DNA from: Betaproteobacteria bacterium HGW-Betaproteobacteria-4
GTDB taxonomy: Bacteria > Pseudomonadota > Gammaproteobacteria > Burkholderiales > Rhodocyclaceae
Assembly (NCBI GenBank): GCA_002840785.1
Contig: PHCH01000019.1
Span: 1-44,025, forward strand
Direction of reading: 5' to 3'
DNA length: 44,025 nucleotides
Shown here: positions 541-41,397 of the stretch, piece by piece
Layout: every line of letters begins with the position of its first letter
How positions within the stretch are numbered: position 1 is the first letter of the stretch
Translations under genes and position numbers: made by a program
The notes under the pieces: model-generated
Database searches by the model: none
Seen by the model: only the letters and a program-made list of their open reading frames with translations
What the model was told of the DNA's origin: nothing

Positions 541-1566
541 TTAGGTGCTCTCAGAGCCCTTTCGGGGCGCCGGCACCCGGTTTTCGAGGTCGCGCAGCAG
601 CATTTTGATTTCGACCTCCTTAAGCTCGCGCGCCATGCCGCGTTTCAATTGCGGCGGCAGCACGAACGGGCCGTAGCGAACGCGGATCAATCGGCTGACC
701 GTCACGCCGACCGCCTCGAACATGCGACGCACTTCGCGGTTGCGGCCTTCAAAGATGGTAACGCGATACCAGTGGTTGGCGCCTTCGCCGCCGCCGTCAT
801 GCAGCGTCCCGAAATTGGCCCGGCCGTCCTCGAGTTCGACGCCATGCAGCAACTGCTGTTGCGCTTCGAGCGTCAGTTCGCCGAGCACGCGAACGGCGTA
901 CTCGCGGACCAGTTCCGAACTCGGGTGCATGAGTTTGTTGGCCAGATCGCCGGAGGTCGTAAAAATGAGCAGACCGGAGGTGTTGAAGTCGAGACGGCCG
1001 ACGTTGATCCAGCGACCGCCGCGCATGCGGGGCAGCGCTGCAAAGACTGACGGACGGCCATCCGGGTCGTCGCGCGAGACGATTTCGCCTTCCGGCTTGT
1101 GGTACATCAGGACGCGCGGCGGACGGGTGCTGCCGGTGAAGCGGATGTTGATCAGCCGGCCGCCGATCTTGACCTTGTCGGTCGGCACGACTGACTGGCC
1201 GATAGTCGCCACGACGCCGTTGACGGTGACCTTGCCGGCCGAAATCCACTCTTCCATTTCGCGGCGCGAACCGACGCCGGCCTGGGCCAGAATCTTCTGC
1301 AGACGTTCCGGCTTGGCTTCGACGACCGCCTTGCCGTTGCGGGCGATGTTGCCACGACTGGCCCGGCCGGTTGCCGGCAACGCGGCGCGGCGGCGCGGCT
1401 TGGGAGCCTCGACCACTTCTTCGGCCTCGGGCGCCTCATCGCGTGCATTGCGGGCGGTACGGCCGCGCGGCGCCGGATTGCTACGGTCAACCGGAATTTC
1501 CGGCCTTTTTTGAAATCCGCCGGGCTTGCTGGCGGAACGGAGAGGTGTGCGTTTATTGGTTTTCAT
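541..1566 (-). CDS. rluB: 23S rRNA pseudouridine synthase (RluB family)
   Basis: Isomerises a uridine in 23S rRNA (U2605 in E. coli for RluB) to pseudouridine. The 341-residue protein has a long, basic, low-complexity N-terminal extension (about residues 1-85). An S4 RNA-binding domain follows ([20 protein letters not shown], about 87-140), then the catalytic domain with the motif [14 protein letters not shown], whose Asp is the family nucleophile, and a C-terminal [15 protein letters not shown] motif typical of RsuA/RluB/E/F. The start overlaps the end of scpB by 14 bp, so translation is probably coupled. The linker around residues 16-31 is encoded by a copy of the dispersed 43-bp repeat read on the opposite strand. 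RluB is preferred over RluE/F because of the scpA-scpB-rluB order, but the exact target base is inferred. Confidence 0.93.
1476..1518 (+). repeat. Dispersed 43-bp repeat, copy A (inside rluB)
   Basis: The first 24 bases match the consensus exactly, starting GATTGCTACGGTCAACCGG and continuing AATTT. The middle (CCGGCCTTTT) diverges, and GAAATCC is kept at the end. It lies in the disordered N-terminal linker of RluB, antisense to the gene. The preceding CCGG allows a CCGG(a)TTG/CAACCGG hairpin with one bulged A. Confidence 0.8.
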
Positions 1567-2098
1567 AATTCAGCTCCAGTGTCTGGGCGATTTGTTCGAG
1601 CGGCGGCAATTCGCTGACGCTGCGCAGTCCCAGATCATCGAGAAATTGCTTGGTGGTGGCAAACAGGGCCGGCCGACCTGGTGTTTCGCGATGGCCGACA
1701 ACGTCGATCCAGCCGCGCTCTTCGAGTGTTTTGACGACATTGGTATTGACCGCGACACCGCGAATTTCCTCGATATCGCCGCGCGTCACCGGTTGACGAT
1801 AGGCGATGATGGCCAGCGTTTCGAGGACGGCACGCGAGTATTTCGGTGGCCGTTCCGGATTCAGGCGCTCGAGGTAAGGCAGATACTCGGCACGCGTCCG
1901 GAAGCGCCAACCGGAGGCAAGCTGGATCAGTTCGACCGGACGTTCAGCCCATTCCTCGCGCAACTCGTCGAGCAACTTGCGCAGGGTATCGGACGACAGA
2001 TCCTCATCGAACATCTTTTTCATTTCGCTGGGCGACATCGGCTCGCGCGCTGCGAGCAACGCGGCCTCAAGCACTCTCTTGACCTGACTCGGTTCCAC
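1553..2098 (-). CDS. scpB: Segregation and condensation protein ScpB
   Basis: Kleisin-associated (Kite) subunit of the SMC-ScpAB condensin-like complex, which compacts and helps segregate the chromosome. The 181-residue protein consists of two winged-helix domains. The second carries the conserved signature [20 protein letters not shown] followed by EEIRGV and [19 protein letters not shown], diagnostic of ScpB. Its 5' end overlaps scpA by 32 bp and its 3' end overlaps rluB by 14 bp, so the three genes are almost certainly cotranscribed and translationally coupled. Length is normal for the family and nothing is missing. Confidence 0.96.
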
Positions 2099-2906
2099 CT
2101 TGATGCACTCGGACGTAAATGGGTTGAAAGGCTTCGGTCTGGGTGATTTCGATCAGTTTTTCCCGACCCAGCTCGAGCATGGCAATGAAATGGACGACCA
2201 GCCCTTGTACGCCCATATCCGGGTCGAACAAGGTCTCGAACTGGACAAAACCACCTTTGGCCTGCAGGGCGCGCAGAATGATGCCCATGTGCTCGCGCAC
2301 CGACAATTCTTCGCGCCCGATCTGGTGATGCTTTTTCAGGCCGGCCTGACGAACGACGGCCATCCAGGCCTCCTTGAGATCATCGACCGAGACTTCCGGC
2401 TGGCGCACCAGCAGCGACTTTTCGACCAGCGTCTCGACCCAGAAAAACTCGCGCTCGGCCTGCGGCATCGCGTTCAGATTCTGGCCGGCGAGCTTCATCT
2501 GCTCGTATTCCATGAGCCGGCGAACCAGCTCGGCGCGCGGATCTTCCGCCTCGTCGCCCTCGCCCAGCTTCGGCCGGGGCAACAACATGCGCGACTTGAT
2601 CTCGATGAGCATCGCCGCCATCACGAGGTAATCGGCAGCCAGTTCGAGATTGCTCGCCCGCATCGCCTCGACGTAATCAAGATACTGCCGGGTCAGCGGC
2701 GCCATCGGGATATCGAGAATATCGATATTGGCGCGGCGAATCATATAGAGCAGGAGGTCAAGCGGCCCCTCGAAGGCATCGAGCATGATGGCCAGCGCAT
2801 CCGGCGGGATGTACAGGTCGAGCGGCATCTGCTCGAGCGGCTGCCCGTAAACGCGGGCAACCGGCTCGACTTCGCCCTCCGGAAGCACTTCAAGGACGTC
2901 GCTCAT
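2067..2906 (-). CDS. scpA: Segregation and condensation protein ScpA
   Basis: Kleisin subunit that bridges the SMC heads and recruits ScpB. The 279-residue protein shows the ScpA hallmark [20 protein letters not shown] near residues 45-64, then [18 protein letters not shown], and a C-terminal winged-helix region beginning near FVQFETLF. The N-terminal 40 residues before the first hallmark are variable in this family, so the start is the least certain part. The ATG chosen lies 4 nt after the stop of the upstream LAB_N gene, and the 3' end overlaps scpB. Confidence 0.95.
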
Positions 2907-2910
2907 GCGC

Positions 2911-3201
2911 TCAGGAGGCCGCGGCGCGGCCCTTGCCCTTGTAATGCAGATGCAGATTGCGGAAGTAGATGATCAGCCCGAGCCCCTGCCCGAAGATGAA
3001 TACAGGGTCATTGCGGTGCACGGCATAGATCGTCAACACAACGCCACCCAGAATACTGAAATACCAGAAAGCAACCGGCACGACGACCTGTTTGGCTTTC
3101 TCGCTCGACCACCACTGGACGACAAAACGCATCATGAACAGGCCCTGGCCACCGAAGCCGATGCCGATCCAGATCAGCGTTTCCCAATCGTAGCCGAACA
3201 T
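2911..3201 (-). CDS. Lipid A biosynthesis N-terminal domain (LAB_N) membrane protein
   Basis: Small integral membrane protein (96 residues) with about three hydrophobic segments. The pattern MMRFVVQWWSSEKAKQVVVP, followed by AFWYFSILGGVVLTIYAV and FIFGQGLGLIIYFRNLHLH, is characteristic of the LAB_N domain. That domain is found alone or at the N-terminus of lipid A-modifying glycosyltransferase-like proteins; its own biochemical role is not established. The start codon overlaps the trpS stop (TGATG), so it is coupled to trpS. It is followed after 4 nt by scpA. Confidence 0.85.
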   Translation of the reverse strand: MFGYDWETLIWIGIGFGGQGLFMMRFVVQWWSSEKAKQVVVPVAFWYFSILGGVVLTIYAVHRNDPVFIFGQGLGLIIYFRNLHLHYKGKGRAAAS

Positions 3202-4403: not shown

Positions 4404-4412
4404 ATTATTTAT

Positions 4413-6645: not shown

Positions 6646-6652
6646 GCCACCC

Positions 6653-6822
6653 GTTCCGTGGGAGAGCGCAGATCCGTCTGCCGCCGAAGGCGCAAATCCA
6701 CCCGAAAACGCTCAGGCAAAAGGACCGCGGAACAAGGCGCAAGCCAAAAAACTCTGGAGAGCGATGGCGGCTATTGCCGGCGTCCACCGATGGGGCAAAT
6801 CTCTCAGGTATCGAGGACAGAG
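6653..6822 (+). ncRNA. Tandem glycine riboswitch (two aptamers)
   Basis: Aptamer I is closed by GTTCCG (6653-6658) pairing with CGGAAC (6728-6733). It contains the class-typical strings GGGAGAGC, GCCGAAGGCGCAA and CTCAGGCAAAAGGACCG. Aptamer II is closed by CTCTG (6752-6756) pairing with CAGAG (6818-6822), with GGAGAGCGA, CCGATGGGGCAAA and CTCTCAGGTATCGAGGACAG. These are the conserved core strings of the gcvT (glycine) riboswitch, and the double-aptamer arrangement with a short linker is the common form. It lies in the 5' leader of gcvT and should sense glycine to control the cleavage operon. Confidence 0.95.
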
Positions 6823-6861
6823 GGGTGAAACGAAAGGCCATTCTTTCGTTTCACCCTTTTT
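6823..6861 (+). terminator. Intrinsic terminator of the glycine riboswitch expression platform
   Basis: A perfect 14-bp stem, GGGTGAAACGAAAG (6823-6836) with CTTTCGTTTCACCC (6843-6856), loop GCCATT, is followed by TTTTT. It begins at the base directly after the P1 helix of aptamer II, so aptamer folding and terminator formation are plausibly coupled. Known gcv riboswitches are usually on-switches, but the direction cannot be proved by reading alone. Confidence 0.85.
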
Positions 6862-8331: not shown

Positions 8332-8427
8332 CTCCTCCCCCGTCAAGGGGGAGGCTGGGAGGGGGATGGGTTCGGTTTGCGCCATGAACCCATCCCCACT
8401 CCGGCCCTCCCCTTGAAGGGGAGGGAG
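8332..8427. repeat. Long GC-rich palindrome (REP/MITE-like), copy 1, between gcvH and gcvP
   Basis: Two 42-bp arms (8332-8373 and 8386-8427) are imperfect reverse complements around a 12-bp centre. Each arm has its own smaller hairpin (CCTCCCCC..GGGGGAGG and CCCTCCCC-TTGA-AGGGGAGGG). A related element lies at 32607-32709. It lies inside the gcv operon and would fold into a very stable mRNA hairpin 28 nt before the gcvP ATG. Confidence 0.85.
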
Positions 8428-8455: not shown

Positions 8456-11333
<2,878 letters not shown>

Positions 11334-11334
<1 letters not shown>

Positions 11335-11876
11335 TGACCGTCGATCTCTCTGCCATCGCCAAGTGGCCCAACGTCCCCGCCTGTTACGACTGGCTGTCGC
11401 TCGACCGGCGGGGCGACTGGCGATTACAGGGAGAGCGCGTGACGCACAGCGGCCTGATCAACTTCATCAACCGGCAGTATGGTTGTGACGAATCAGGCTG
11501 CTGGTTTTTGCAGAACGGCCCGCAACGGGTGTTCGTTGAACTGGCCTATACCCCTTGGGTTTTCCGCCGCGAAGGTGAATCCTTCATCAGCCATACCGGC
11601 GCACCGGCCGGCGACATCAAGGCCATTTACCTCGATGAAGAAGGCAGCATCCTGCTCGAAACGAGCCTGGGCATCGGCCTGCTCGACGACCGCGACCTGA
11701 CCCGATTTCTCGCCGAATGCCATGACGGCAACGGCCAGCCAGCCAGCGACGAGGCCCTGACCAGCCTCATGGAAACCGGTTCCGGCGATATCCGCTGGCA
11801 AAACCGGCCACTCCAGTCGATTGCTACGGTCGACACGAAAAAACGCTTTAATTTCAACCCGCACCCGCAGCCCTGA
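11334..11876 (+). CDS. Conserved hypothetical protein of the gcv operon (DUF2946/DUF2944-like, uncertain)
   Basis: A 180-residue soluble protein with no signal peptide or membrane segment. The start MTVDLSAIAKWPNVPACYDW overlaps the gcvP stop (TGATGA), so it is translationally coupled. Internal stretches such as WRLQGERVTHSGLINFINRQ, CWFLQNGPQRVFVEL and YTPWVFRR resemble an uncharacterised betaproteobacterial family I recall as a DUF29xx family, but the exact Pfam name cannot be confirmed here. No catalytic motif is recognisable. The last 19 residues (from SIATV) are encoded by a degenerate copy of the dispersed 43-bp repeat, so the natural C-terminus may have been rewritten by it. It converges on the DnaJ-like gene 9 bp away. 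Confidence 0.75.
11819..11860 (+). repeat. Dispersed repeat, copy C (degenerate, end of a gene)
   Basis: GATTGCTACGGTC is identical to the consensus; the rest (GACACG, then an A-rich and T-rich stretch ending ATTTCAACC) is diverged. In this copy TCAAC has become TCGAC, and the left flank reads GTCGA. The small hairpin GTCGA-TTGCTACGG-TCGAC is thus preserved by a matching change. Confidence 0.65.
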
Positions 11877-16747: not shown

Positions 16748-16790
16748 GATTGCTACGGTCAACCGGAAATTTAGCCCAAAAACAAAATCC
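16748..16790 (+). repeat. Dispersed 43-bp repeat, copy D (rfbC-manC gap)
   Basis: Near-consensus copy in the 127-bp gap between rfbC and manC, beginning GATTGCTACGGTCAACCGG and followed by AAATTTAGCCCAAAA. The left flank GTTGA pairs with TCAAC around the loop TTGCTACGG. Confidence 0.85.
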
Positions 16791-19173: not shown

Positions 19174-20235
19174 TCAAGCGCAGTACTGCTTGCCGACCCA
19201 GTTCTGGTAAGCGCCGCTGGTCACATTGGCCACCCAGGCCTGGTTATCGAGATACCACTGCACCGTCTTCTTGATGCCGGTCTCGAAAGTTTCGGCCGGC
19301 TTCCAGCCGAGTTCGCGTTCGATCTTGGTGGCGTCGATGGCGTAGCGGCGATCATGGCCGGGGCGGTCGGTAACGTAAGTGATCAGCTCCTTGTACGGCT
19401 TGCCATCAGCCCGCGGGCTCAGTTCGTCGAGGATGGCGCACAACGTATGCACGACATCCAGATTCGGCTTCTCGTTCCAGCCGCCGACGTTGTAGGTCTC
19501 GCCGACCTTGCCCGCTTCGAGCACGCGGCGGATGGCGCTGCAATGATCCTTGACGTAGAGCCAGTCACGAATCTGCTGGCCATCGCCGTAGATCGGCAGC
19601 GGCTTGCCGGCCAGGGCGTTGTGGATGACCAGCGGGATGAGCTTTTCCGGAAAGTGGTACGGGCCGTAGTTGTTGGAACAGTTGGTGGTCAGCACCGGCA
19701 GGCCGTAGGTGTGGTGGTAGGCGCGCACCAGATGATCGCTCGCCGCCTTGCTCGCCGAATATGGGCTGTTCGGCTCGTACTGGTGGGTTTCGGTAAAGGC
19801 CGGATCATCCTTGGCCAGAGAGCCATAGACCTCGTCGGTCGACACATGAAGAAAACGGAATTCATTTTTGGCCGTTTTTTCCAGTTGACCGTGGAAAGCC
19901 CGCACGGCCTCCAGCAGACGAAAGGTGCCGACGATATTGGTCTGGATGAAGTCTTCCGGTCCATGAATGCTGCGGTCGACGTGCGATTCGGCAGCAAAAT
20001 TGACCACCGCCCGCGGCTGGTGCTCAGCCAGCAACTTCGAAACCAGATCAAAGTCACCGATGCTGCCCTTGACGAAAATATGCCGCGCATCGCCATCGAG
20101 CGAAGCGAGGTTCTCAAGGTTGCCCGCGTAGGTCAGATCATCGAGGTTGATGACCGGCTCATCGGACTGGGCCAGCCAGTCCAATACGAAGTTACTACCA
20201 ATGAAGCCGGCTGCGCCGGTAACCAGAATAGTCAC
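19174..20235 (-). CDS. rfbB: dTDP-glucose 4,6-dehydratase
   Basis: Second step of dTDP-L-rhamnose synthesis. The 353-residue SDR has the Rossmann motif [50 protein letters not shown] (catalytic Thr-Asp-Glu), [12 protein letters not shown] (Tyr-x3-Lys) and [20 protein letters not shown]. It is the first of the rfbBDAC block. The codons for [11 protein letters not shown] (around residues 131-141) show about 30 of 42 matches to the dispersed repeat, without change in protein length relative to E. coli RfbB. Confidence 0.97.
19862..19904 (-). repeat. Possible degenerate copy H of the dispersed repeat (inside rfbB)
   Basis: Read on the minus strand it has CCACGGTCAACTGGAA followed by six diverged bases and GGCCAAAAATGAATTCC. 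It shares 14 consecutive bases (ttccagttgaccgt, plus strand) with copy G. Because the encoded loop is normal in length for RfbB, convergence by chance is not excluded. Confidence 0.4.
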
Positions 20236-20316
20236 AAATAAGCTCCCTTACTCAATTTCAACGGAATAGCAAAAATTTATCAGCCCTTAAATCAGGTCAT
20301 TGGACAAGCCAAAATA

Positions 20317-21153
20317 TCACGTACGAGAAATCCGCTTAACCCCCGGCGGACAAAACAATGGAATCCGATACTTCTGCCAAAAAATTTTCAAACTGGCGAG
20401 GTGCATCTTTCCTGCCCCACTCAAGGGGCCGGCGCTGCTTGAGCGCTGATGATCGTGAATCAAACGAACATTAGGCATACAAATCACCCGAAACCCCTCG
20501 CCCCAGACCCGCGCGCACAAATCCACATCCTCCATATAGAGAAAATAGGATTCATCCATACGGCCAATCTTTTCAAACAAGGCGCGCCGAATCAGGAACC
20601 CAGTGCCCATCACCCAATCGGCATCAAATGGAGCATCCCTTTCCCATGCCGAAAGCATCATATGCTTCGCAACTATTTCCCTCAGCGGCCAAAAGCGCCC
20701 CAACCGCGAACGTCGGCCGATAATATCCAGAACGCTATAAAAACGCCGCGCGGAATACTGGCGTTTCCCGCTTGGATATGTCAGATCAAGTCCAACCAGT
20801 CCAATACCAGAATCCACAACCAATAAATCAAGTGCTTGCGAAATACTCCGATCAACAAAATAGGTGTCAGGATTTAATACAAGAATGTAATCCCGCTTCG
20901 CATGGAGCGACCCAAAATTAACACCAGCGGAGTATCCTAAATTTTGTTTGGCCACAACGAAGCCAGCGCCATTCGGCAAACTGCTTAGCAATTTGCTCTT
21001 CGAGTCGTCCGGCGAACAGTTTTCCACAACAGTTATATCATCGACCGCAGCTATACCAAGTTTCAATATTGAATCAACACATTTCAAAGTCAATTCTGGT
21101 GTGCCGTAGTTAACAATAACAACGCTCAACTTGCCTACCAAATCGTTAGACAC
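20317..21153 (-). CDS. Glycosyltransferase family 2 (rhamnosyltransferase-like)
   Basis: Inverting GT-A glycosyltransferase of 278 residues, cytoplasmic, likely adding one sugar of the EPS repeat unit. It has the N-terminal VVIVNYGTPELTLKCVDSIL, the metal-binding DxD-type VLNPDTYF, and the acceptor-domain motif GTGFLIRRALFEKIG..DESYFLYMEDVDLC. This WbbL-type pattern is frequent in rhamnosyltransferases, and the rfb genes directly downstream suit that, but specificity is inference. It is noticeably AT-richer than the rfb genes and marks the right edge (in transcription, the last gene) of the variable block. Confidence 0.85.
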   Translation of the reverse strand: MSNDLVGKLSVVIVNYGTPELTLKCVDSILKLGIAAVDDITVVENCSPDDSKSKLLSSLPNGAGFVVAKQNLGYSAGVNFGSLHAKRDYILVLNPDTYFVDRSISQALDLLVVDSGIGLVGLDLTYPSGKRQYSARRFYSVLDIIGRRSRLGRFWPLREIVAKHMMLSAWERDAPFDADWVMGTGFLIRRALFEKIGRMDESYFLYMEDVDLCARVWGEGFRVICMPNVRLIHDHQRSSSAGPLSGAGKMHLASLKIFWQKYRIPLFCPPGVKRISRT

Positions 21154-22462: not shown

Positions 22463-22505
22463 TTCGCGTCATTCCAAAGAAAACCGCATAATATATTTAT
22501 ATTAA

Positions 22506-24708: not shown

Positions 24709-24719
24709 ATATCGGCTCT

Positions 24720-25742
24720 CTAAGGCTGCTTGACGAAATCTACTGACGAGAAAGCCACGGAAAAAGCCAGCAAGCCCTCGCGTAAACGCCCCTTGACCGC
24801 TGCCTTTGCTCCATCGACCAAAAGCCAAAACCGCGTAGCGATCAACAGATGGGGGAAAAATGTCTTCATAAACCGCAAGCGGCTACGGAACATAAAACCG
24901 AGCGAAAAGAGCGAACCGTTTCCGGCAGCAGCGCCTACCTTGTGGAAAACGTAGCTTCCCGGCGCGTACGCCAATTTGAATTTTCCCGAAGCACGACAAG
25001 CCCAGTCGAGTTCTTCATAGTAAAGAAAATAGTCCTCGCAAATTAGGCCTACGGTCTCAAGAAACGAACGAGAGACCAGCATAGAAGCACCGATTACATA
25101 AGCCGTCTGCTGCTCGATCTCATGTTGCTGTGCAGGAGATATTTCGCGATACAGGGCGCCGATCCCAATTGGCCGAGCGCGGCAGCGCCAAGGAATAAAA
25201 GTTGCCCCCCCCAAAGCCTGAAGCCGTTCCGGGTCGCCATAAAATCGAAGAGTCGACCCTACGATGCCTACATTGTTATCAACAGATGCCCTCTCCACCA
25301 GTTTTGCCAAAGCATCTGAATCGACAACCGTATCATTATTCAATAGCCATACGTAATCAGCACCTTGATCCAACGCATAACGTATCCCCACGTTGTTGCC
25401 GCCAGCGAAACCAAGATTCGACCCGGTTTGAATAAGCGTTAGTTGTGCAGACTGCCCCCTCAATGCCTCATGCTCAGAAGCCAAACGTGAATACTCGATG
25501 TAACTGACCGGCTTTAAAAGAGGTGGAAAAGTCAAGGCAGCCAAAGATGGTGAAGAAAGCGGTGCCGCAAGCTTTCCGTCAGCCCACGCTTTGATCTTTT
25601 CAAGCGATCCATCCTTAGAGTCATTGTCGCAAACCACCACCTCGAAATTGTCGTAATCCAGCCTAAAGACACTTTCCAGGCACTCGACTGTGTCTTCCCA
25701 ACCATTCCAGTTGAGCAAAACGATATGGACTTTTGGATTCAT
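24720..25742 (-). CDS. Glycosyltransferase family 2
   Basis: GT-A enzyme of 340 residues starting MNPKVHIVLLNWNGWEDTVE. Motifs: FEVVVCDNDSKDGSLEKI, NLGFAGGNNVGIRYAL, the DxD-type LLNNDTVVDSDAL, VIGASMLVSRSFLETVG and DYFLYYEELDWACRA. The start overlaps the end of the polymerase/ligase gene (ATGA, start at 25742), indicating coupling. Donor and acceptor are unknown. Confidence 0.88.
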   Translation of the reverse strand: MNPKVHIVLLNWNGWEDTVECLESVFRLDYDNFEVVVCDNDSKDGSLEKIKAWADGKLAAPLSSPSLAALTFPPLLKPVSYIEYSRLASEHEALRGQSAQLTLIQTGSNLGFAGGNNVGIRYALDQGADYVWLLNNDTVVDSDALAKLVERASVDNNVGIVGSTLRFYGDPERLQALGGATFIPWRCRARPIGIGALYREISPAQQHEIEQQTAYVIGASMLVSRSFLETVGLICEDYFLYYEELDWACRASGKFKLAYAPGSYVFHKVGAAAGNGSLFSLGFMFRSRLRFMKTFFPHLLIATRFWLLVDGAKAAVKGRLREGLLAFSVAFSSVDFVKQP

Positions 25743-27172
25743 CGGACTGCTTTCATTGAAACGTGCTTGTCCACTGAAACAAGCAAGCCGATCGCTATGG
25801 CAAAGAACGAGATCCCTGTAGAGACCAACCACTCTGGCTGAGTAAATGAAGTCAATACCGGAACAATAAAAGCAATTAATAATGTGGCTGCAAGGGAGCG
25901 ATATTCTGCTTCATTTGTATTTTTATAAATAATATATGTTTTAGTAACAACCATATAAATAGCTAAAATTGCAGCAAACAAACCAAAAACCCCTAGCTTC
26001 ATCCAAAGCCCCAAATAGGAATTATGGATATAGCGTACCTGCGACCAGTCTGCCATTGGATCCAATCGCGGTTTATAGGCAGTGCCAAAGCCAATTCCTA
26101 CAATCGGACTAGATAAAATCTTGTTAATCGCGAAATTTGCCTCCTCAAACCGCCAACCTAGAGAGGAATTTTTAGCACCTTCACCAGCAGTGCTCACAAC
26201 ACGTTCATACGCTGCCTCAATAACCTGTGGCTTCGCAATAGAAAGACCAACCAAAGCAGTACCAACTCCGATAACCAAAATCACTGAAATCTGCGCTAAT
26301 CCTTTTGATCCTTTCAGCAAAAATGCCAACCCTAAAGAACCAATCGCAGCCGTTATCCAAATAGCACGGCCAAAGCTAACCACAACGCCAGCAGCCAATA
26401 CGGGCAACAAAAAAATCGGGAAAATCAAATTAATGCTCCCCGTCAATACACGGGCAATAAGGTAAAACATTGGGAGCAAAATCAGATAGATTGCACCCCC
26501 GGCTGTGCTGCGGGTGATGTCTTGATAATGTGTAGCACCAGACACCAAATCCTCTACGCGGGCATTTTGAATAATAGTTATACCAGTCAAAAACTGCACG
26601 ACCACCGCAGTGGCAACAGCAACACCAACAAAGACCAGCCCCCAGATAACTCTATTCAATCGGATACGATCAGTTGTCAGGTAAATGACAATAAAAGCAA
26701 TCAGCCAATGCACTTGAGAGCGAGCCTCAGTGAACACATCTTTGATTGCGGAGCCATAGAATTTATTTCCAATGATCATTCCAGAAACAGTTAACAACAT
26801 AAATAGCAGAACAGGGCGCATATACACCCATCTGCCATCTAAATAGCCGGGAAACGCGGATGCTTTCACCAAAGCAACGACGGCCAACCCAAATATTGCT
26901 AGATCAGTGCCCAGCACTTTTCCTGGTCCAACATTAATACTTGGCATTAAGCCTTCAGGGACCAAACCCGAAATCATTAATATCAAAATAATTAGCCCGT
27001 ACTCTGGAAAGAGCACAGCAACTCCGATAAGCATCGGAAGCAATAGAAATGCGACGACCATCCACCAAGGCAATACCGCTGCCAAAAGCCCAAAAAACAA
27101 TGCCACAACTACCAGTCCAATGAAAAGCAATGGTCTTGAATTTGTAGTTCGCAAACCGCTGACAAAAACCAT
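25739..27172 (-). CDS. O-antigen ligase / Wzy-type polymerase family membrane protein
   Basis: Polytopic membrane protein (477 residues, about a dozen hydrophobic segments). The large periplasmic region near the C-terminus contains SSLGWRFEEANFAINKILSS, then PIVGIGFGTAYKP and RYIHNSYLGLWMKLGVFGLF. This is the Wzy_C/O-antigen ligase pattern (H-N-x-Y/L-L). In an EPS locus with a Wzx flippase it is most likely the repeat-unit polymerase. The ATG of MVFVSGLRTTN is used, 4 nt after the FrhB-like stop. It is one of the most AT-rich genes of the window, as is common for Wzy genes. Confidence 0.82.
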   Translation of the reverse strand: MVFVSGLRTTNSRPLLFIGLVVVALFFGLLAAVLPWWMVVAFLLLPMLIGVAVLFPEYGLIILILMISGLVPEGLMPSINVGPGKVLGTDLAIFGLAVVALVKASAFPGYLDGRWVYMRPVLLFMLLTVSGMIIGNKFYGSAIKDVFTEARSQVHWLIAFIVIYLTTDRIRLNRVIWGLVFVGVAVATAVVVQFLTGITIIQNARVEDLVSGATHYQDITRSTAGGAIYLILLPMFYLIARVLTGSINLIFPIFLLPVLAAGVVVSFGRAIWITAAIGSLGLAFLLKGSKGLAQISVILVIGVGTALVGLSIAKPQVIEAAYERVVSTAGEGAKNSSLGWRFEEANFAINKILSSPIVGIGFGTAYKPRLDPMADWSQVRYIHNSYLGLWMKLGVFGLFAAILAIYMVVTKTYIIYKNTNEAEYRSLAATLLIAFIVPVLTSFTQPEWLVSTGISFFAIAIGLLVSVDKHVSMKAVR

Positions 27173-27176
27173 GACA

Positions 27177-28406
27177 TTAATTCCTGAATCTGGTGTTGAT
27201 AACGCGCTTTTGTGTTCTGCGATAAGAGCCAGCAAAATTGCGTAAATTCGTCACCAAACCCATACGTCTGCTGCAAGCAGCAAGCCCCATATTTCGAAAC
27301 CGAGGCAAAGCCCCCGCCTTAAGCCACACGCCAGCCAATCTGGCCAGCAAAGCTGACTTCCGTTCCTTCTGATAAGGCTGCATCAAAGCCACTTGCGCCA
27401 AATCACAAGCCTCGACCGCAATGGCTTGGGACTGCAAGACATCTGCAATCAGTTCTTCCCCGCGCCTGGTGCGCGCCAGAATAAGGCTACGCCCAGCCTG
27501 CTCGTCAAACTCTGGGTAACCGTCTTTTCCATACCAGGCATCAGCGCAGGCAATATCGGCGAACTCGCCGGTACCATCCGGACAGATCTTGCAACGGAAC
27601 TGGAGATGGCGATTCAGGATCGTTCCCCAAGAGGTTGCGTAGTCCATTTCACTGACGCGTCCGTCATGAGTCACTGCTTTTGCCTTGCCGGGCCAACCCT
27701 CGCCACGATAGGAAAACTTGGCCAACTGTTCTCGTTCGACACCGAGCTTTTTCAGCACCTCAAGCGTGCCGTGTTGGCTAGGAACGCCCGCACAAAAAAA
27801 GGCAATACAGAAAGCTGTTTTTTCGCTCACGCGTTTGTCTACTCGGGCAAGATTACGTAAGCCTGCCACGTCGCAGGGCTTGCCGACAAATGCGAATTTC
27901 CCGGGAAGATCGAGCAAGGCAGTCAGATTTTCGAGTGGAGCGGAGGGTGCATAGCGCGAACCCGCACCCTTTAGCACGTCAGCACGGCTACGGCTCAAGC
28001 GCACTTCATTTCTTAGCGGATCAGTTTCAGAGGCCGCAACGTGAGCAACATAGTCGACAGCCCCCGACTCCAGCAAATGGATAAGGAGCGCAGAAATAGC
28101 ACCACCAGAAGACCCTTGGTAACGAACTTCTTCATCGAGCGCAAAACCGGTTCGTACGGTGACAACAGGCCCCCAAAGGGAATCGTATGGAACGTTCCCG
28201 GGCTCGTGCTCCAGATAATTGCCGGGACAGGTTCCGGCTACGAGGGCATTTTCTTCAACGGTAAGTTTCTTGTGAATTTGCGGCCGCAAGAACCCTTCCT
28301 TGCTCATTGCCATCGAGACTTTGTTGTCGGAGATCAATGTCGAACAAAGGCCGCAGCCTGAACACAAGCGCCCGTCAACAATTCCGGAAAGCGTCGTCTC
28401 CGCCAT
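27177..28406 (-). CDS. FrhB-like (coenzyme F420 hydrogenase/dehydrogenase beta subunit) iron-sulfur protein
   Basis: A 409-residue soluble protein of the FrhB/FdhB family: the N-terminal cysteine motif CSGCGLC with CPGN further on, the FAD-binding-like core SSGGAISALLIHLLESGAVD, FVGKPCDVAGLRNL, and a second cysteine group CKICPDGTGEFADIACADAW. Family members bind flavin and Fe-S clusters and oxidise or reduce cofactors, but the versions in polysaccharide loci have no proven reaction. It overlaps the pyruvyltransferase-like gene by one base (TGATG), so both are coupled. This is the same pairing seen in many glycan clusters. Function here is unknown. Confidence 0.85.
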   Translation of the reverse strand: MAETTLSGIVDGRLCSGCGLCSTLISDNKVSMAMSKEGFLRPQIHKKLTVEENALVAGTCPGNYLEHEPGNVPYDSLWGPVVTVRTGFALDEEVRYQGSSGGAISALLIHLLESGAVDYVAHVAASETDPLRNEVRLSRSRADVLKGAGSRYAPSAPLENLTALLDLPGKFAFVGKPCDVAGLRNLARVDKRVSEKTAFCIAFFCAGVPSQHGTLEVLKKLGVEREQLAKFSYRGEGWPGKAKAVTHDGRVSEMDYATSWGTILNRHLQFRCKICPDGTGEFADIACADAWYGKDGYPEFDEQAGRSLILARTRRGEELIADVLQSQAIAVEACDLAQVALMQPYQKERKSALLARLAGVWLKAGALPRFRNMGLAACSRRMGLVTNLRNFAGSYRRTQKRVINTRFRN

Positions 28407-29581
28407 CAGCGCAACTCCGCCAGCGACCGTTCGACAAACGACTCGTAACCCGCTAGACGTTCCACTGCTCGACGATTCCCCTCCTCGACTCTTACGCGAA
28501 GCGCTGGCAGGTTATCCAGGCCATCGAGCACCATCGTTAGCAGCGCTTCGTTGCCGATTTCTCGACAGTCACCAACAACGTCATAACCGACAGACGAAAA
28601 CAGCCCGATGAATTTCCGGCTGTAAGCGATGGGAACAACCGGGACGCCACTTGAAAAAGCCGCGATACACGCATGCATGCGGGCGCCAGAGAAGAAATCA
28701 AAGCCGGCAATATAAGACTTCGCCTCGCTCGGCGTAGAAAACCGAGGCGCCACAGAAACGCCGGGGAACTCCTTGGCGAGAACGAGGCTGGCGGCATAAT
28801 CATCCTCGGCTGCAATGGAATCGGTGAGCACATGAGGAACCAGAGTTACTGCGCAATCGCCCCGCTCCAGAAGCTTTGTCAGCAGCGTTCGAATAAAGAC
28901 CGGATAATCAACCGTCAAACCAAACTGGTTGGTTCCCGTATAACCACCACTAAACATCAATCCCGATACGTTTATACCGACAGCGATTTTCCCCTCCGCT
29001 CGAACCTGATCAATCTTGGTGTAAGGGAGACGGAACGCAACATCAATCGCCTCACCTGAATTACTCACCACGTTCAGCGAAGTCAGATAAGCCTTTGAAA
29101 GATGATCCCTCGCATAGACGCGACGACAACGAGACATGACCATCGAAGCAAGCCGGCGAGTCCAGCCTTTCTCAAATGGGCCTATGGTTTGGGGACTAAG
29201 AATGAGAGGACGACCGCAAGCCAGCACTGAAATTTTGGAAGCAATCTGCAATACGAAACGAACGCCACCGTAGATATCCGTAAAACTGTCACCTTCGCCA
29301 ATATCAAAGACCAGATCGCATTCACGAATCTGTTTCAGAAACTCCGACTGACCCAGCAGAATTCTCTTCGGCTTGAATGGGGCACCAACTTCACAGCGGT
29401 TGTTCAATTCAAGCACGGGCTTTTCGCCCACGGTGCCAAAAATTCGATAGTTAACCGTTACACCCGCGCGTTCAGCTGCGGCGTCAATTATTTTTATTTG
29501 CGATGCGGTAAGCGCAAGAACACCAAGGTTGTCTGATGTTAACGAATGCCATAAAAGACCAACCACTAATTCATTTTTCAC
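28406..29581 (-). CDS. Polysaccharide pyruvyl transferase family protein
   Basis: Member of the PS_pyruv_trans (WcaK/CsaB-like) family, 391 residues. Supporting stretches are SLTSDNLGVLALTASQIKII, DLVFDIGEGDSFTDIYGG, LILSPQTIGPFEKGWTRRLA, VYARDHLSKAYL, TLVPHV and FFSGARMHACIAAFSSGVPV. Characterised members transfer pyruvate from phosphoenolpyruvate as a ketal onto a sugar, adding negative charge. Whether this one is a true ketalase is inferred. It overlaps the FrhB-like gene and follows the flippase after 34 bp. Confidence 0.86.
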   Translation of the reverse strand: MKNELVVGLLWHSLTSDNLGVLALTASQIKIIDAAAERAGVTVNYRIFGTVGEKPVLELNNRCEVGAPFKPKRILLGQSEFLKQIRECDLVFDIGEGDSFTDIYGGVRFVLQIASKISVLACGRPLILSPQTIGPFEKGWTRRLASMVMSRCRRVYARDHLSKAYLTSLNVVSNSGEAIDVAFRLPYTKIDQVRAEGKIAVGINVSGLMFSGGYTGTNQFGLTVDYPVFIRTLLTKLLERGDCAVTLVPHVLTDSIAAEDDYAASLVLAKEFPGVSVAPRFSTPSEAKSYIAGFDFFSGARMHACIAAFSSGVPVVPIAYSRKFIGLFSSVGYDVVGDCREIGNEALLTMVLDGLDNLPALRVRVEEGNRRAVERLAGYESFVERSLAELR

Positions 29582-29615
29582 AGCACTGCCCTGTCATTAA
29601 TTATGAATTTTAAAA

Positions 29616-30905
29616 TCACTTCGTGTTACCTAATATTTGAATCGCAATTGGTGCCAGAAATATAAATATCACGCAAACATTCAGCACATTTATACCTGTT
29701 GGAATACCTTGTCTGTATAGAGCACCAAGATATAGAGCGCCAACCAATAGCGTGGCGCAGACGAAGGCCATCAGCATTCCGACAACGCCATAAATCGGAA
29801 TAGCAATCATGGCTACAACTATTAGAACCACTAACGCCAATCCGTTTGCAAAAACCCGAACAGTTTGCAGACCATGAGCTGTTAGATTTATTCCAAACCC
29901 AGCGGCAACAAATCGCACAATCAGCGCCAAGCCAAACCAAGGTAACAGTATCGAAAGTTGGGAATATTCAACACCAAATAACAGATTAGTAATGAGGATA
30001 TTGCCAACTGCAAAAATGGCTCCGACTCCCCCACCCAACAAACTCATTTTTAGAATCAATTTGGTTACTATCGAACTACAGTCAGCTCGTTGCATCTGTT
30101 GAGACGCGATATGCGGCGTGTAAACGTTACCTACGATGGGTGCAATCGAATTTGCCCCCTGCATCAATTTCAACCCTGCTTGATAAAGGCCTACCGCCTT
30201 CGTCGATGTCATGTAACTGAGCAAAATGACATCCAAGGTCGAGTTAAGCGTACTCACTGCCATATCTGCGGCATACGGAAAGCCATCACGCAAGGTTTTC
30301 CAAACATCGGCGAACGACCAATCGTTCGACTTTTGCATAACGGGCAAAAATGGCAAGGCAAGGCGCCAGCCAAGTAACAAGGTGGCGCAACGCGACAAAA
30401 GAAATCCGACGGCTACCGCAGTTATTGTTCCGAATACCAGTAGCGGTAATAAAACTCCGAAAAAATTCAACGCGGATGTAAACAGCGAAAAACGTGCTTC
30501 TTTATCAAAATAGCCAAGCGCTCGCAGAACGAAATTGATGTGTTCTGCGAATGATTCCGCAAGCGCCATGATAAGCAGCGACCAGAATATGGTCGTTGGT
30601 ACGCTTTCTAGCAGGCCGATAACCAAGCCGACCACGATAATCAGCAAACTCAATACAATCTTTGCCGCCAGAGTGGCTCTGTATACTTTTGCCGCAGAGT
30701 TTGGGTCTCGTCCAATTTCCCGCAGCAATTGGAGGCCAAAACCATAGTTAACCAACAATGCGAGCAAGCTTGAAAATGCGAGCCAGTAAGCCAATTGACC
30801 GAAAATTTCCGGCCCCAGTTTTCGGGCCAGAAAAATAAACAATAAAAAGCCAGCGCCCAGGCGCATTAAAGTCGAAACCGTCATCCAACCGATATTTTTC
30901 AGCAT
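29616..30905 (-). CDS. Oligosaccharide flippase (Wzx/MATE-like)
   Basis: Polytopic membrane protein of 429 residues with roughly 12-14 hydrophobic helices. The N-terminus, MLRLGAGF-type followed by FLLFIFLARKLGPEIFGQLA, and the repeated structure are typical of Polysacc_synt (PST) flippases, which move undecaprenyl-linked repeat units to the periplasm. The helix-linking KAVGLYQAGLKLMQGANSIA is also typical. It is the first gene of the AT-rich variable block after epsI and pairs functionally with the Wzy-like gene. Confidence 0.9.
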   Translation of the reverse strand: MLKNIGWMTVSTLMRLGAGFLLFIFLARKLGPEIFGQLAYWLAFSSLLALLVNYGFGLQLLREIGRDPNSAAKVYRATLAAKIVLSLLIIVVGLVIGLLESVPTTIFWSLLIMALAESFAEHINFVLRALGYFDKEARFSLFTSALNFFGVLLPLLVFGTITAVAVGFLLSRCATLLLGWRLALPFLPVMQKSNDWSFADVWKTLRDGFPYAADMAVSTLNSTLDVILLSYMTSTKAVGLYQAGLKLMQGANSIAPIVGNVYTPHIASQQMQRADCSSIVTKLILKMSLLGGGVGAIFAVGNILITNLLFGVEYSQLSILLPWFGLALIVRFVAAGFGINLTAHGLQTVRVFANGLALVVLIVVAMIAIPIYGVVGMLMAFVCATLLVGALYLGALYRQGIPTGINVLNVCVIFIFLAPIAIQILGNTK

Positions 30906-30927
30906 GGATCAGTTTCAACCGCGAAGA

Positions 30928-31608
30928 TTATTTCAAGCCACCGGAGAGGCGCTGCCTTGACTCCGGAGTTAGGCTTGAAAGTAGCTTTTTAGCGAACTCG
31001 TCTTGTTTTTTAAATGCATTGTTCTGGTCGCGGTCAATACTCGATACACGAACAAGCATCCCATCGGGTACCTCGCCTGTGAGTCCATAGGCAACTTGAA
31101 CGATTTTTTGAGTTATATCGGGGCGTACCACTTTGTCAGCTACCGTGACCCAATAGGTTATTGGTTCGATACGATTTCCTTGAAGTGCAAGTACTCTTTT
31201 GATAGGTAATACGCCTTGATCAAGTATCAGGTTATCCATTCGATGGTCTTCAACCTGAAATCCCTGTGCCGCATAGCAAACTTCGGGTTTGTGAACTTTC
31301 ATGGAGTCACTTTGATCGCTGCCGTAGGCTATCGAAAGCATGATGCGGTAGCCTTGTTCATTCACATAGGTGCGCGAAAGCACCTGGCTATAAATCGTGT
31401 CGAGAAACGCTTTTTGCTGGGGGTCAATTACCTGAATTGAGGGGATGACCTCTTCATGCCATCCCTCCATTTCAACAGGGACCATGCTGGCGAGATCAAT
31501 TTTTGGTCCCTGATCAGCGATCTTGTGCGTTGGCCGCATGGCAATAGCCAAGCCTGCACTGGCCAGCATCAGCACGAGCAGAATGATGTTGCGAATCGGG
31601 AGTTTCAT
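30928..31608 (-). CDS. epsI: Exosortase-associated protein EpsI
   Basis: EpsI-family protein of 226 residues, normally encoded next to or fused with exosortases. It has one N-terminal membrane helix (about 5-25) and a periplasmic domain with the family patterns VPVEMEGWHEEVIPS, YRIMLSIAYGSDQSDSMKVH, KPEVCYAAQGFQVED and ITYWVTVADKVV. The reaction is not known; genetic context links it to exosortase/EPS assembly. It overlaps xrtB by 4 bp (ATGA), so it is coupled. Base composition already falls toward the AT-rich block. Confidence 0.92.
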   Translation of the reverse strand: MKLPIRNIILLVLMLASAGLAIAMRPTHKIADQGPKIDLASMVPVEMEGWHEEVIPSIQVIDPQQKAFLDTIYSQVLSRTYVNEQGYRIMLSIAYGSDQSDSMKVHKPEVCYAAQGFQVEDHRMDNLILDQGVLPIKRVLALQGNRIEPITYWVTVADKVVRPDITQKIVQVAYGLTGEVPDGMLVRVSSIDRDQNNAFKKQDEFAKKLLSSLTPESRQRLSGGLK

Positions 31609-32507
31609 GCTTGCACCTTGTTCGCGACCGCTTGCCCGCGCCAGCGCTTTTCGCCAACCTGCAGCAGCGAATCGACGCCCATGATGATGAGCAGCGCAGT
31701 GATGAACAGCACCATGCCGGCGAAGCCGTGCAGGAAGCCTTGGCCTGCTTCGTCGCCAAAGTGGTAGGTGATGAGCGTGAGGACCATGACGCGGATGACG
31801 TTGGCGGTGAAGGAGATGGGGATGATGAGGATGGCCAGGGCGACGTTGCGGAACAGGGAGTCGTGGCGAACGATGTTGAGGTAGAGCAGGCCGAGGGCTT
31901 CAAGGGTGAACAGGGTTTGCAGGCCGGCGCAGGCGTCGGCGACGAGCAGTTTGTACTGGCCGATCTGCAGGATGACGCCAGTGCGCGAGATGGGGTAGCC
32001 GACCCAGTAGAGGACGTTTTCGGCGACGTAGGAGACGGCCATCTTCATGGGTAGTGTGAGCGCGTCGACGAAGGCGCCGGGCAGCGGGATCATGAAGAGC
32101 AGGAAGAAGAGCGGGAACCAGGCGGCGCCGAGGGCGGACCAGCCGCGCAGGATGAGCAGCAGGCTGGCGATGACGACGATTTGCGAGCCAACTTCAAAGA
32201 GCAGGATGTCTTGCGAGCGGCCGATGGTGTAGAGCAGCAGGCCGAGGATGAAGAGCGGCCAGCCGGCTTTTGAGGGTGCCGCGAGTGTGCTGTGGATGGT
32301 CGGGCCTTGTTTCCAGAAGAACCAGACAGCAACCGCCAGGATGATGGGGCCGTGGGCCTGGGCTTCGGTGGCCCAGATGGTGCTGGAAAGATCGACCCAG
32401 GTGGGGACGTAGAGGGCGATGAGGCCGAGGAGAATGGGGAACCATTCGGCGATGGCCGGGCGGGTTTGCGCCGGGAGTAGCCGGGTGTTTTGTGCGGCGT
32501 GGTTCAT
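31605..32507 (-). CDS. xrtB: Exosortase B (EpsH)
   Basis: Polytopic membrane transpeptidase-like protein (300 residues, about eight helices) that sorts PEP-CTERM proteins. The predicted catalytic triad is complete: Cys193 in VADACAGLQTLFTLEALGLL, Arg239 in ANVIRVMVLTLITYHFGD and His260 in GQGFLHGFAGM. Genes epsI (after) and epsG, F, E, D, L (before) match the exosortase-B EPS locus first described as epsA-R in Methylobacillus. No PEP-CTERM substrate is visible in the window. Confidence 0.95.
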   Translation of the reverse strand: MNHAAQNTRLLPAQTRPAIAEWFPILLGLIALYVPTWVDLSSTIWATEAQAHGPIILAVAVWFFWKQGPTIHSTLAAPSKAGWPLFILGLLLYTIGRSQDILLFEVGSQIVVIASLLLILRGWSALGAAWFPLFFLLFMIPLPGAFVDALTLPMKMAVSYVAENVLYWVGYPISRTGVILQIGQYKLLVADACAGLQTLFTLEALGLLYLNIVRHDSLFRNVALAILIIPISFTANVIRVMVLTLITYHFGDEAGQGFLHGFAGMVLFITALLIIMGVDSLLQVGEKRWRGQAVANKVQA

Positions 32508-32526: not shown

Positions 32527-32568
32527 GAATGCTACGGTCAACCGGGAATTTTGCCCAAAATTGAAATG
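32527..32568 (+). repeat. Dispersed 43-bp repeat, copy E (epsG-xrtB gap)
   Basis: GAATGCTACGGTCAACCGGG followed by AATTTTGCCCAAAATTGAAAT. With its left flank it forms the longest first hairpin of all copies: CCGGTTGA-ATGCTACGG-TCAACCGG (8 bp). The second hairpin is AATTTT-GCCC-AAAATT. It lies just upstream of the xrtB start. Confidence 0.85.
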
Positions 32569-32606
32569 TTGCAGGGCGCGTGAGAATGATATTTGGGCTT
32601 TCACCT

Positions 32607-32709
32607 TCACCCATCCCGACCCTCCCCTTGAAGGGGAGGGAGGAAGGGCGAAGGGCCCTCCCCTTGTCCAAGGGGATACCGCCCCTGCGGGACATAAAGG
32701 GGAGGGAGT
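32607..32709. repeat. Long GC-rich palindrome (REP/MITE-like), copy 2, between epsG and xrtB
   Basis: Contains CCCATCCC, CCCTCCCC-TTGA-AGGGGAGGG and a second larger stem (CCCTCCCCTTGTCC to AAAGGGGAGGGAG), the same units as the element at 8332-8427. Here the two halves are joined by AGGAAGGGCGAAGGG. It sits in the 283-bp gap between epsG and xrtB beside repeat copy E. Confidence 0.8.
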
Positions 32710-33666: not shown

Positions 33667-35083
33667 TCAGGCCTTCGCTGCGGCTGGCTGATTGCCAATT
33701 TTAAGAGTGGATTCGCGATTGCTACGGTCAACCGGATTTTTTGCCCAAAATCGAAATCCTCTTTTTGCCCTGGGCAGCGCGGAATCGAGTTCGGCCAGCA
33801 CGGGCAGGTCGAGCGCCAGGGCGAGGTCTTCGGCCGAACGGATGCGGCGCTGGCTGAGTTCGACGACGAGCGCGGCGCCGACACCGAGCATGGTGCCGAG
33901 GAAGATGGAAACCAGCACGTTGAGGAAGACCTTGGGCCGGGAATGCTGGGTCGGCTCGGTGGCCGGGCTGAGTACGAGCACGTTGGTCTGCTGCGACTGA
34001 CCTTCGAGATTGGTTTGCATCATGCGCTGGCCAACGGCCTCGTAGGCGCGGCGGGCGGTTTCGACGTCGTTGACCAGCACGGAGAGTTCATCGCGCTGCG
34101 AGCGCAGGTCGAGTACCCGTTTTTTCTGTTCTTCGATCGCCTTCTTGAGTTCGTCCTGTTTGACGATGCCGAACTTGCTGGCGACGGCATTCCCGCCGGA
34201 GATACGGCCGATTTCCTGACGCAGTTGCTGGCGCTGCTCGGCGATCTGGGCTTCGAGCTGCAGGACTTGCGGATGATTCTTGCCGAGGTTGCTGCCGATT
34301 TGCGAAAGCTGCGATTCGGCCCGGGCGATTTCGGCTTTGAGGCCCTGGACCAGCGGGTTCTGCAGGACTTCGAGCGAGAGTTCGCTGGTGCCGCTCTTTT
34401 GCCGACTGGAGGCGTCGGCACGCTGGGCCTGGGTAGCGGAGAGCTGCATGGTCAGGTCGTTGAGGCGCGCCGTTTCGTTGTCCATCATGCGGTCGTCGGT
34501 AACGACGATGCCTTTTTCCTGCTGGTAGGCGGAAAGGCGGGACTGGGCTTTTTCGAGGTTGGCGCGCAGGCCTTTCTGGCGCTCTTCAAACCAGGCGCTG
34601 TATTGGCGGGCCGGCTCGACGCGCATTTCGATGGAGGTGTCGATATAGGCCTGGGCAAAGGCGTTGGCGACGGCGGCGGCAAAAATCGGGTCGGCACCGG
34701 AGAAGCTCACGCTGATCACGTTGCTCTCGCGGGAAGGCTTGATGTCGAGCTTCTTTTGCAGGATCCCGGCGTAGTAGCCTTCCAGCGTGCCCTTGCCTTC
34801 GCTGGCTTCCTTCCAGCTCTCGACGGCCTCGGCACTCTTCTCGAAACCCAGCAGCTTGACGACGCGGGTGGCGACGCGCTCGCTGTTGATGATGTCCATC
34901 TGCGTCGCCATGTAGCCGGGCGCCATCATGCCCTGCATGATCATGCCGGCGATGGGGTCGGGCGGTGTATTCCTTGGGCAGGATCAGGCTGATGGCCAGC
35001 GTGGTCAGCACGGTGACGCCAAAAATCGACAGCGCCAGCTTGCGGCGTGCCCAGAGGATGAGGAGAAATTGCTGAAAAGTCAT
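33667..35083 (-). pseudogene. epsF: Chain-length-determinant protein EpsF, frameshifted by a small internal deletion
   Basis: Wzz/PCP-type inner-membrane protein that sets polymer length and partners EpsG. The N-terminus MTFQQFLLILWARRKLALSI (start 35083) includes TM1 and stays in frame to LPKEYTA. At about 34961 the frame changes and the protein continues DPIAGMIMQGMMAPGYMATQ to the end. About 10 codons, normally holding a T-x-SVVVDVK-type strand, are missing; the remaining 1417 bp is 3n+1. The rest has the long coiled-coil region (about 150-300) and a second TM (FLNVLVSIFLGTMLGVGAAL). The last ~20 codons (RGFRFWAKNPVDRSN...) are encoded by repeat copy F. An internal ATG (34944) could give a product lacking TM1. 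Confidence 0.85.
33717..33759 (+). repeat. Dispersed 43-bp repeat, copy F (3' end of epsF)
   Basis: Near-consensus: GATTGCTACGGTCAACCGG then ATTTTTTGCCCAAAATCGAAATCC. The second hairpin is GATTTT-TTGCCC-AAAATC, a compensated variant of AATTTT/AAAATT in copies E and G. It overlaps the last codons of epsF, antisense to the gene. Confidence 0.85.
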
Positions 35084-40782: not shown

Positions 40783-40814
40783 GTATCCTTCAGCATTTAT
40801 CCAGAAGCAAGTGT

Positions 40815-41066
40815 ATGGGATCACGCTGGCTCACGGGCCTTTTCTCGCGCCTCAAGGCGCTGTTTTTCGGCCGCCCCGCCCCGCTTTCCGACTATGCCCG
40901 CGCCCGGCAACTGATTGCCGCTGTCGACCGTGGCGGCATCCCGCTCAATCCGGCCAAGGTCAATGCCATCGCCCGCAGCCTCGGCCTCGAGGTTGCCCGC
41001 CAGGCGCCGGTCGAGGCCACGCTGGAGCGCATCCGCCTCGCCCTCGCGCGCGCCACCGAACCATGA
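40815..41066 (+). CDS. Small conserved hypothetical protein
   Basis: An 83-residue protein with a basic, amphipathic N-terminus (MGSRWLTGLFSRLKALFFGR) and a helical second half (DYARARQLIAAVDRGGIPLN...LEVARQAPVEATLERIRLAL) with no recognised domain. The stop overlaps the start of the GIY-YIG gene (ATGA), so they form a small operon. It resembles proteins found beside RNase D-like genes in related bacteria, but I do not recognise a named family. Confidence 0.7.
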   Translation: MGSRWLTGLFSRLKALFFGRPAPLSDYARARQLIAAVDRGGIPLNPAKVNAIARSLGLEVARQAPVEATLERIRLALARATEP

Positions 41067-41341
41067 GCAAGCCCTGGTTTCTGTACATGATCGAGTGTGC
41101 CGATGGCAGCATCTACACCGGCATCGCCGTCGACGTCGAAAGCCGCTACGCCGCCCACTGCGCCGGAACGGGCGCCCGGTACACGCGCTCGCATCCCCCG
41201 CTCCGCCTGCTCGGCTACGAAAACCATCCGGACAGGTCGTCGGCGTCGAAAGCGGAGTACCGGATCAAGCGACTGACACCCGGCGAGAAGCGACAGTACG
41301 CCGCGTCGCTGCGCCCCGTCGCCGCCAATTTGCCCGGCTGA
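41063..41341 (+). CDS. GIY-YIG nuclease family protein (YhbQ-like)
   Basis: A 92-residue GIY-YIG endonuclease-fold protein. The motif is seen as FLYMIECADGSIYTGIAVDV, with ARYTRSHPPLRLLGYEN and the conserved Glu and Lys in SKAEYRIKRLTPGEK. The small single-domain form (UPF0213/YhbQ-like) has an unsettled role in DNA damage or repair. The start overlaps the previous stop (ATGA). Repeat copy G follows 14 bp after the stop. Confidence 0.92.
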   Translation: MSKPWFLYMIECADGSIYTGIAVDVESRYAAHCAGTGARYTRSHPPLRLLGYENHPDRSSASKAEYRIKRLTPGEKRQYAASLRPVAANLPG

Positions 41342-41354
41342 AAACCGGAAACCT

Positions 41355-41397
41355 CCATTTCAATTTTGGGCAAAAATTCCAGTTGACCGTAGGAGTC
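41355..41397 (-). repeat. Dispersed 43-bp repeat, copy G (after the GIY-YIG gene)
   Basis: Minus-strand reading: GACTCCTACGGTCAACTGG, AATTTTTGCCCAAAATTGAAATGG. The second hairpin AATTTT-TGCCC-AAAATT is perfect. It is the only well-conserved copy in the opposite orientation. Confidence 0.85.

Follow-up and report, generated by a model that had tools for sequence, protein, structure and literature searches.

The first 44,025 nucleotides of contig PHCH01000019.1 (assembly GCA_002840785.1) of Betaproteobacteria bacterium HGW-Betaproteobacteria-4, a member of the Rhodocyclaceae, are referred to here as the window. This stretch holds, among others, a pseudouridine synthase gene, gcvP, a DUF2946 gene, a manC-like gene, rmlB and an exosortase gene, and between and inside these genes lies a dispersed repeat of 43 nucleotides, which is the subject of this work. 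An earlier note on the same DNA had reported seven copies, and a scan of the window with the pattern GATTGCTACGGTCAACCGG, allowing up to three mismatches, recovered exactly these seven, with 0 matches in the 100 dinucleotide shuffles used as a control. The copies at 1476, 16748 and 33717 match the pattern perfectly, the one at 32527 has one mismatch and the one at 9055 two, while three are found at 11819 and at 41379 (minus strand). A repeat finder placed six of them in a single direct family of 43 nt, with 60-88% identity to the reference copy, and returned the seventh as an inverted partner. Moreover, an eighth copy (X) was found within the RmlB gene, and those starting at 9055, 11819 and 19857 all lie in coding sequence, which corrects the earlier description (Table 1).

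Table 1. Copies of the 43-nt repeat in the window, with their surroundings
Copy	Position	Strand	Context
A	1476..1518	+	Perfect core; near the predicted start of the pseudouridine synthase gene (541-1566, minus)
B	9055..9097	+	Within gcvP (8456-10924), translated; genome G034 has its own dialect in register
C	11819..11861	+	In the 3′ part of the DUF2946 gene (11334-11876); translated IATVDTKK
D	16748..16790	+	Perfect core; intergenic, upstream of the manC-like gene (minus)
X	19857..19899	-	Within rmlB (19174-20235, minus), translated; missing in genome G083, length unchanged
E	32527..32569	+	Perfect 15-nt core; directly upstream of the exosortase gene (31605-32507, minus)
F	33717..33759	+	Perfect core; copy in one of five spellings in 8/8 aligned relatives
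G	41355..41397	-	Intergenic

Abundance and anatomy of the repeat

The host assembly (4.07 Mb in 174 contigs, 93% complete) contains the 15-mer GCTACGGTCAACCGG, with up to two mismatches, at 358 forward and 320 reverse places, that is, 678 in all, against 31 for the reversed pattern. The estimate of several hundred copies per genome, extrapolated earlier from the window, is thus correct, and the genome-wide count stands far above chance. In this line, a blind k-mer count returned a 10-mer from the repeat as the most over-represented one (39 seen, 0.55 expected).

The anatomy of the unit was derived from 69 copies in 444 kb of host sequence, numbered with position 0 at the G of GCTACGG. A GC-rich core (TGCTACGGTCAACCGG) is followed by A/T tracts spaced by about one helical turn. 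The core reads TGC(T/C)ACGGTC(A/G)ACCGG in the host genome and TGC(T/C)(A/G)CGGTC(A/G)ACCGG in its more general form. The tracts lie at about +15 to +20, +26 to +31 and +33 to +36, the first two separated by a GC-rich spacer, and the fraction of A or T reaches 0.9-1.0 at +16 to +20 and +27 to +30. Of the original description as a core followed by a second region of related sequence, the core stands; the second half is no single fixed sequence, as A and T interchange within the tracts. Little signal is left beyond about -4 to +36, and the consensus profile shows neither a hairpin nor a consistent terminal repeat, nor is the unit palindromic. A pattern built only from the tracts of the consensus matched 24 places in 464 kb, 22 of them with the core in register upstream; core and A/T tracts therefore form one unit.

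In the same 464-kb sample, the 12-mer CTACGGTCAACC occurs 36 times perfectly and 20 times with one mismatch (control 5), whereas two and three mismatches give 53 and 331 places (controls 49 and 391), so that these counts show no tail of decayed copies. Among the 20 places with a single mismatch, 15 carry T2>C, A9>G or A3>G, which are the positions that distinguish the dialects.

Placement and origin of the copies

Genes were predicted with a home-made gene finder, which covered a fraction of 0.81-0.95 of each of the six pieces making up the sample. The 69 copies comprise 38 wholly within predicted genes, 15 at gene edges and 16 intergenic; they are enriched outside genes relative to gene cover, yet common inside. 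Sense copies fall in one reading frame in 18 of 23 cases, giving IATVN(R/P)-type peptides, and 11 of the 15 antisense copies also share a single frame. As for orientation, judged by GC skew, 30 copies are leading and 30 lagging (the nine in weak-skew pieces were left out), and the single-contig genome G030 has near-equal numbers of forward and reverse copies (155 and 161).

Insertion was addressed by comparing orthologous sites, eight from the window in 10 genomes and eleven from contig C64 in 12 genomes, or 212 site-by-genome pairs, of which an anchor rule made 40 alignable at 16 of the 19 sites. No length difference was found in 29 of these 40 pairs, one of up to 3 bp in two, one of up to 12 bp in another and a larger one in eight, and none fell in the range of a clean insertion (-30 to -50 bp). 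Motif sites are more variable in length than random control sites, 8/40 against 10/275 differing by more than 12 bp (29/40 and 242/275 show no difference). Relatives mostly carry a copy in register at the orthologous site, often spelled differently: copy B is spelled CTACGGTCAAC in the host and CTGCGGTCGAC in G034, and copy F takes CTA, CCA, TGA, CTG and GCG forms in its eight aligned relatives. CGGTC(A/G)AC is exact in 32 of the 40 orthologs; of the eight remaining rows, those for copy F in G014 and in G034 result from mapping cuts, the copy being present there, and one further row, 43000 in G095, retains most of the core.

Coding sites facing a relative without the copy are the telling ones. 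The length difference is 0 bp at RmlB against G083, 0 bp at C64 36821 and +1 bp at C64 29027, both against G035, a genome in which the motif is absent throughout; at C64 29383 it is also 0 bp, with part of the core retained in G035. In the same way, RmlB aligns without gaps across copy X with its two closest solved chains, a third chain being eight residues longer there. The intergenic site 34586 differs from two copy-less relatives by -28 bp (G095) and +107 bp (G002), neither of them a clean 43. The search for a target-site duplication at loci lacking the element, proposed by the earlier note, accordingly met no pair with a clean 43-bp gain, and at the few informative sites the copies are shown to originate in place by substitution.

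Dialects among relatives and scarcity in two acquired islands

Exact counts on both strands in 76 genomes of the genus, host included, separated at least four dialects. The host form CTACGGTCAAC occurs 468 times in the host, 439 in G076 and 324 in G078; CCACGGTCAAC reaches 537 in G002, 461 in G090 and 405 in G088; CTGCGGTCAAC is found 307 and 301 times in G014 and G067, and CTGCGGTCGAC 646 and 390 times in G075 and G083. Blind k-mer counts picked out TGCGGTCAAC for G014, TGCGGTCGAC for G083 and CCACGGTCAA for G002, and G035 and G071 yielded no such motif; for G034 and G079, where the samples were small, other repeats headed the ranking. Of the 76 genomes, 38 have one of the four forms in 40 or more copies, the remaining ones having 25 or fewer. 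Further spellings exist, since the 15-mer with two mismatches still finds 77 places in G005 and 126 in G029, which are low in all four forms, and CYRCGGTCRAC occurs 277 times in G031 and 653 times in G085.

Across the family, from which 297 genomes of 68 genera were counted, only this genus reached hundreds of copies (10 of the 12 genomes drawn from it); elsewhere the highest count is 78 (control 49), and some genera show a mild excess, e.g., 71 against 19 in G201. The search of the genome and its relatives that had been proposed thus gave hundreds of copies in the host and in about half of its genus, and near-background numbers in other genera. When mapped on a tree of ComEC from 30 genomes, the dialect labels can be explained by 9 changes; shuffled labels need 16.1 on average, and none of 200 shuffles came as low. 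On the same tree 11 motif-less genomes require 6 changes, which suggests that the motif was lost several times.

The carrier genus is probably the Dechloromonas/Azonexus group of the Rhodocyclales. Among the matches listed, several motif matches fall in Azonexus, Rhodocyclaceae and Betaproteobacteria assemblies and in one record labelled Gammaproteobacteria, and single matches in Dechloromonas and Azonexaceae records. The record JAHJVE01 (OSL_B.mb.10), labelled Gammaproteobacteria, contains long blocks 92-97% identical to the window and is placed in the same genus, so that its label looks wrong.

The motif is scarce in two acquired islands. The first 107 kb of host contig C40 contain one copy, against 68 in the remaining 337 kb of the sample; this region has a lower GC content over most of its extent, and ten proteins scanned from it (C40 1-107000) included a phage-type integrase and catabolic enzymes (PQQ dehydrogenase, DUF1302, ETF-QO and FAD enzymes). 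In G002 an insert of ~34 kb, which encodes a type ISP restriction enzyme and a CHAT protein besides a large serine recombinase, has no copies, against five in ~26 kb of surrounding sequence. Probabilities attached to these islands would be too strong, because they were spotted through their low counts. A polysaccharide-type block of the window (20229-31300), adjoining the exosortase gene, also lacks copies, which taken alone is unremarkable; between 20.2 and 31.3 kb no match longer than 300 bp appeared among the matches listed for the eight relatives compared.

As a separate observation, comEC appears split in two species, in G002:C33 at about 109.6-143.3 kb and in G068:C1 at about 2218.7-2251.2 kb, by inserts of ~34 and ~32 kb, respectively, with lower GC and a large serine recombinase adjoining comEC. 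Defence-like genes in these inserts encode a type ISP restriction enzyme, a CHAT protein and an AAA_13 protein, and such defence islands may form a family that regularly targets comEC. In the window itself, a second repeat, palindromic and G+C-rich (CCCTCCCCTTGAAGGGGAGGGAG type), occurs at 8332-8427 and 32610-32642; it is unrelated to the main one, and similar stretches match many genomes of the genus. Tandem glycine riboswitch aptamers lie at 6649-6830 (+), upstream of the gene at 6906 and of gcvP.

A probable DNA uptake signal and its rivals

Abundance, origin in place, dialects, lack of polarity and scarcity in islands make up the profile of an uptake signal, and judging from these features of the genomes the repeat is quite probably the DNA uptake signal of one genus, of the kind called uptake signal sequence (USS) in the Pasteurellaceae and DNA uptake sequence (DUS) in the Neisseriaceae. 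On this reading a surface DNA receptor belonging to the natural-transformation machinery, most probably one of the minor pilins of the type IV pilus, would bind the unit as a short tag, and DNA of the cell's own kind would be taken up preferentially. In such a mechanism the GC-rich core would be recognised by its sequence, and the A/T tracts would probably aid bending or kinking of the DNA at entry. Copies would arise by point mutation rather than insertion, and could persist and spread in place because motif-bearing DNA would be taken up and recombined more often; as the preference of the receptor drifted, the copies would drift along, giving rise to dialects.

Uptake signals are described as known only from the two families just named, and the spacing of their copies is reported as somewhat more regular than random, a trend in the known cases and not a definition. 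As described in PMC1626085, the USS of the Pasteurellaceae has a core (AAGTGCGGT in the Hin type, ACAAGCGGT(C) in the Apl type) and, 3′ of it, two AT-rich motifs spaced by about one turn of the helix; copies are not insertions, are commonly perfect, lie in both orientations and form lineage-specific types. The repeat resembles this signal in its layout of a core with 3′ A/T tracts about one turn apart, in its non-insertional origin, its dialects, its occurrence in both orientations and its many perfect copies, and its CTG dialects share GCGGTC with the Apl type. It differs in having another core, neither AAGTGCGGT nor ACAAGCGGT and longer (about 15 bp), a first tract ~8 bp away from GCGGT instead of adjoining it and a third short tract; moreover, it belongs to another bacterial class. 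As to the Neisseriaceae, several DUS dialects and some motif-less members are described in PMC3630211, and the DUS is presented in PMC1626085 as devoid of flanking motifs. The repeat shares with GCCGTCTGAA and its dialects the betaproteobacterial setting, the multiple dialects and the motif-less members, but its core is unrelated and it has flanking tracts.

As to competence machinery, ComEC was found in 71 of the 76 genomes of the genus, host included, and the minor-pilin region of the host reads ispH - GspH pilin (fimT) - pilin - pilW - pilX. A search for PF11773 found it in 0 of the 76 genomes, which says nothing on ComP, because this family is ComGE. Several observations weigh against an uptake signal. 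ComEC occurs in carriers and non-carriers alike (the 11 motif-less genomes of the 30 in the tree have it), GspH pilins, present in 26 of 27 genomes, do not separate the two groups, and in G002, a strong carrier, comEC appears to be split by the insert mentioned above, its short first piece falling under the family cut-off. The density of about 1 copy per 4-6 kb is below the ~1 per kb of USS and DUS, spacing is no more regular than random (coefficient of variation 1.20 against 1.24 simulated, P 0.47), and close inverted pairs are not in excess, with 3 of 63 spacings under 500 bp. In regard to origin in place, most of the 40 aligned pairs do not test insertion because the relative also carries the copy, strictly informative coding pairs number only three, intergenic sites are often length-variable (-28, +107, -19, +35 and +18 bp), and GcvP at copy B is 4 residues (12 bp) longer than the two solved chains shown.

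The main rival sees the repeat as a site to which a nucleoid-associated or chromosome-organising protein binds, comparable to parS, matS or Noc sites, with hundreds of copies kept by selection and changing together with the protein. The anatomy of a protein site with phased A/T tracts and the hundreds of dispersed sites arisen in place would suit such a protein, whose drift could also produce dialects; against it, though not decisively, speak the 38 copies wholly inside predicted genes with their preferred frame (18/23 sense), the half of the genus that lives without the motif, the lack of polarity and the islands that tolerate its near absence. We consider this explanation unlikely, with a chance well short of one in four. 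The earlier proposal of a mobile, transposase-dependent or protein-binding element survives in its protein-binding part, which fits a core with phased A/T tracts. Its mobile part, be it a miniature inverted-repeat transposable element (MITE), a repetitive extragenic palindromic (REP)-like sequence or another transposase-dependent element, is very improbable. The repeat does share with REP/RAYT and MITE-type repeats its shortness and its hundreds of copies, in numbers high and very variable between close species; those elements, however, insert or are palindromic, whereas here no aligned pair falls in the clean-insertion range, coding sites are gap-free against motif-less relatives, no decay tail exists, dialects are replaced in register and the non-palindromic consensus has no consistent terminal repeat or hairpin.

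Equally little credit is given to a transcription signal, that is, a promoter with UP element, an operator of a global regulator or a terminator. The 31 copies that are intergenic or at gene edges exceed the expectation from gene cover, and the reverse strand offers TTGACC after A/T tracts; against this stand the copies inside genes in both orientations, the lack of a conserved -10 partner, a consensus that forms no hairpin and the absence of an Rfam match at any copy. The promoter reading of the reverse-strand TTGACC was rejected for want of a conserved -10, and a hairpin in the A/T half was set aside, as it pairs in some copies only and not in the consensus. Least probable of all, with hardly any weight, is a polar guide or recombination motif like the FtsK-orienting polar sequences (KOPS) or Chi, with which the repeat has in common its hundreds of short, dispersed copies arisen in place; it differs from them in its even split between leading and lagging orientation, seen in 60 of the 69 copies and again in G030.

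If confirmed, the repeat would represent a third, independently evolved self-DNA code beyond those of the two families named above; this code would have at least four dialects in one environmental betaproteobacterial genus and a layout convergent with that of the Pasteurellaceae, and the reading as a whole is rather likely. A literature search of partial coverage, with most subscription journals and preprints outside it, returned no report pairing uptake sequences with this bacterial group, and the string CGGTCAACCGG retrieved unrelated papers only. Such a code would mean that self-recognition in transformation is not peculiar to commensals and pathogens, and that phased tracts answer a physical requirement common to DNA crossing the outer membrane; it would also give an independent test of the role of flanking A/T tracts. 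Dialect change would become traceable species by species in a free-living genus, whose several dialects and motif-less species would make the receptor mappable by comparison, and barriers to gene flow would be predicted between these species.

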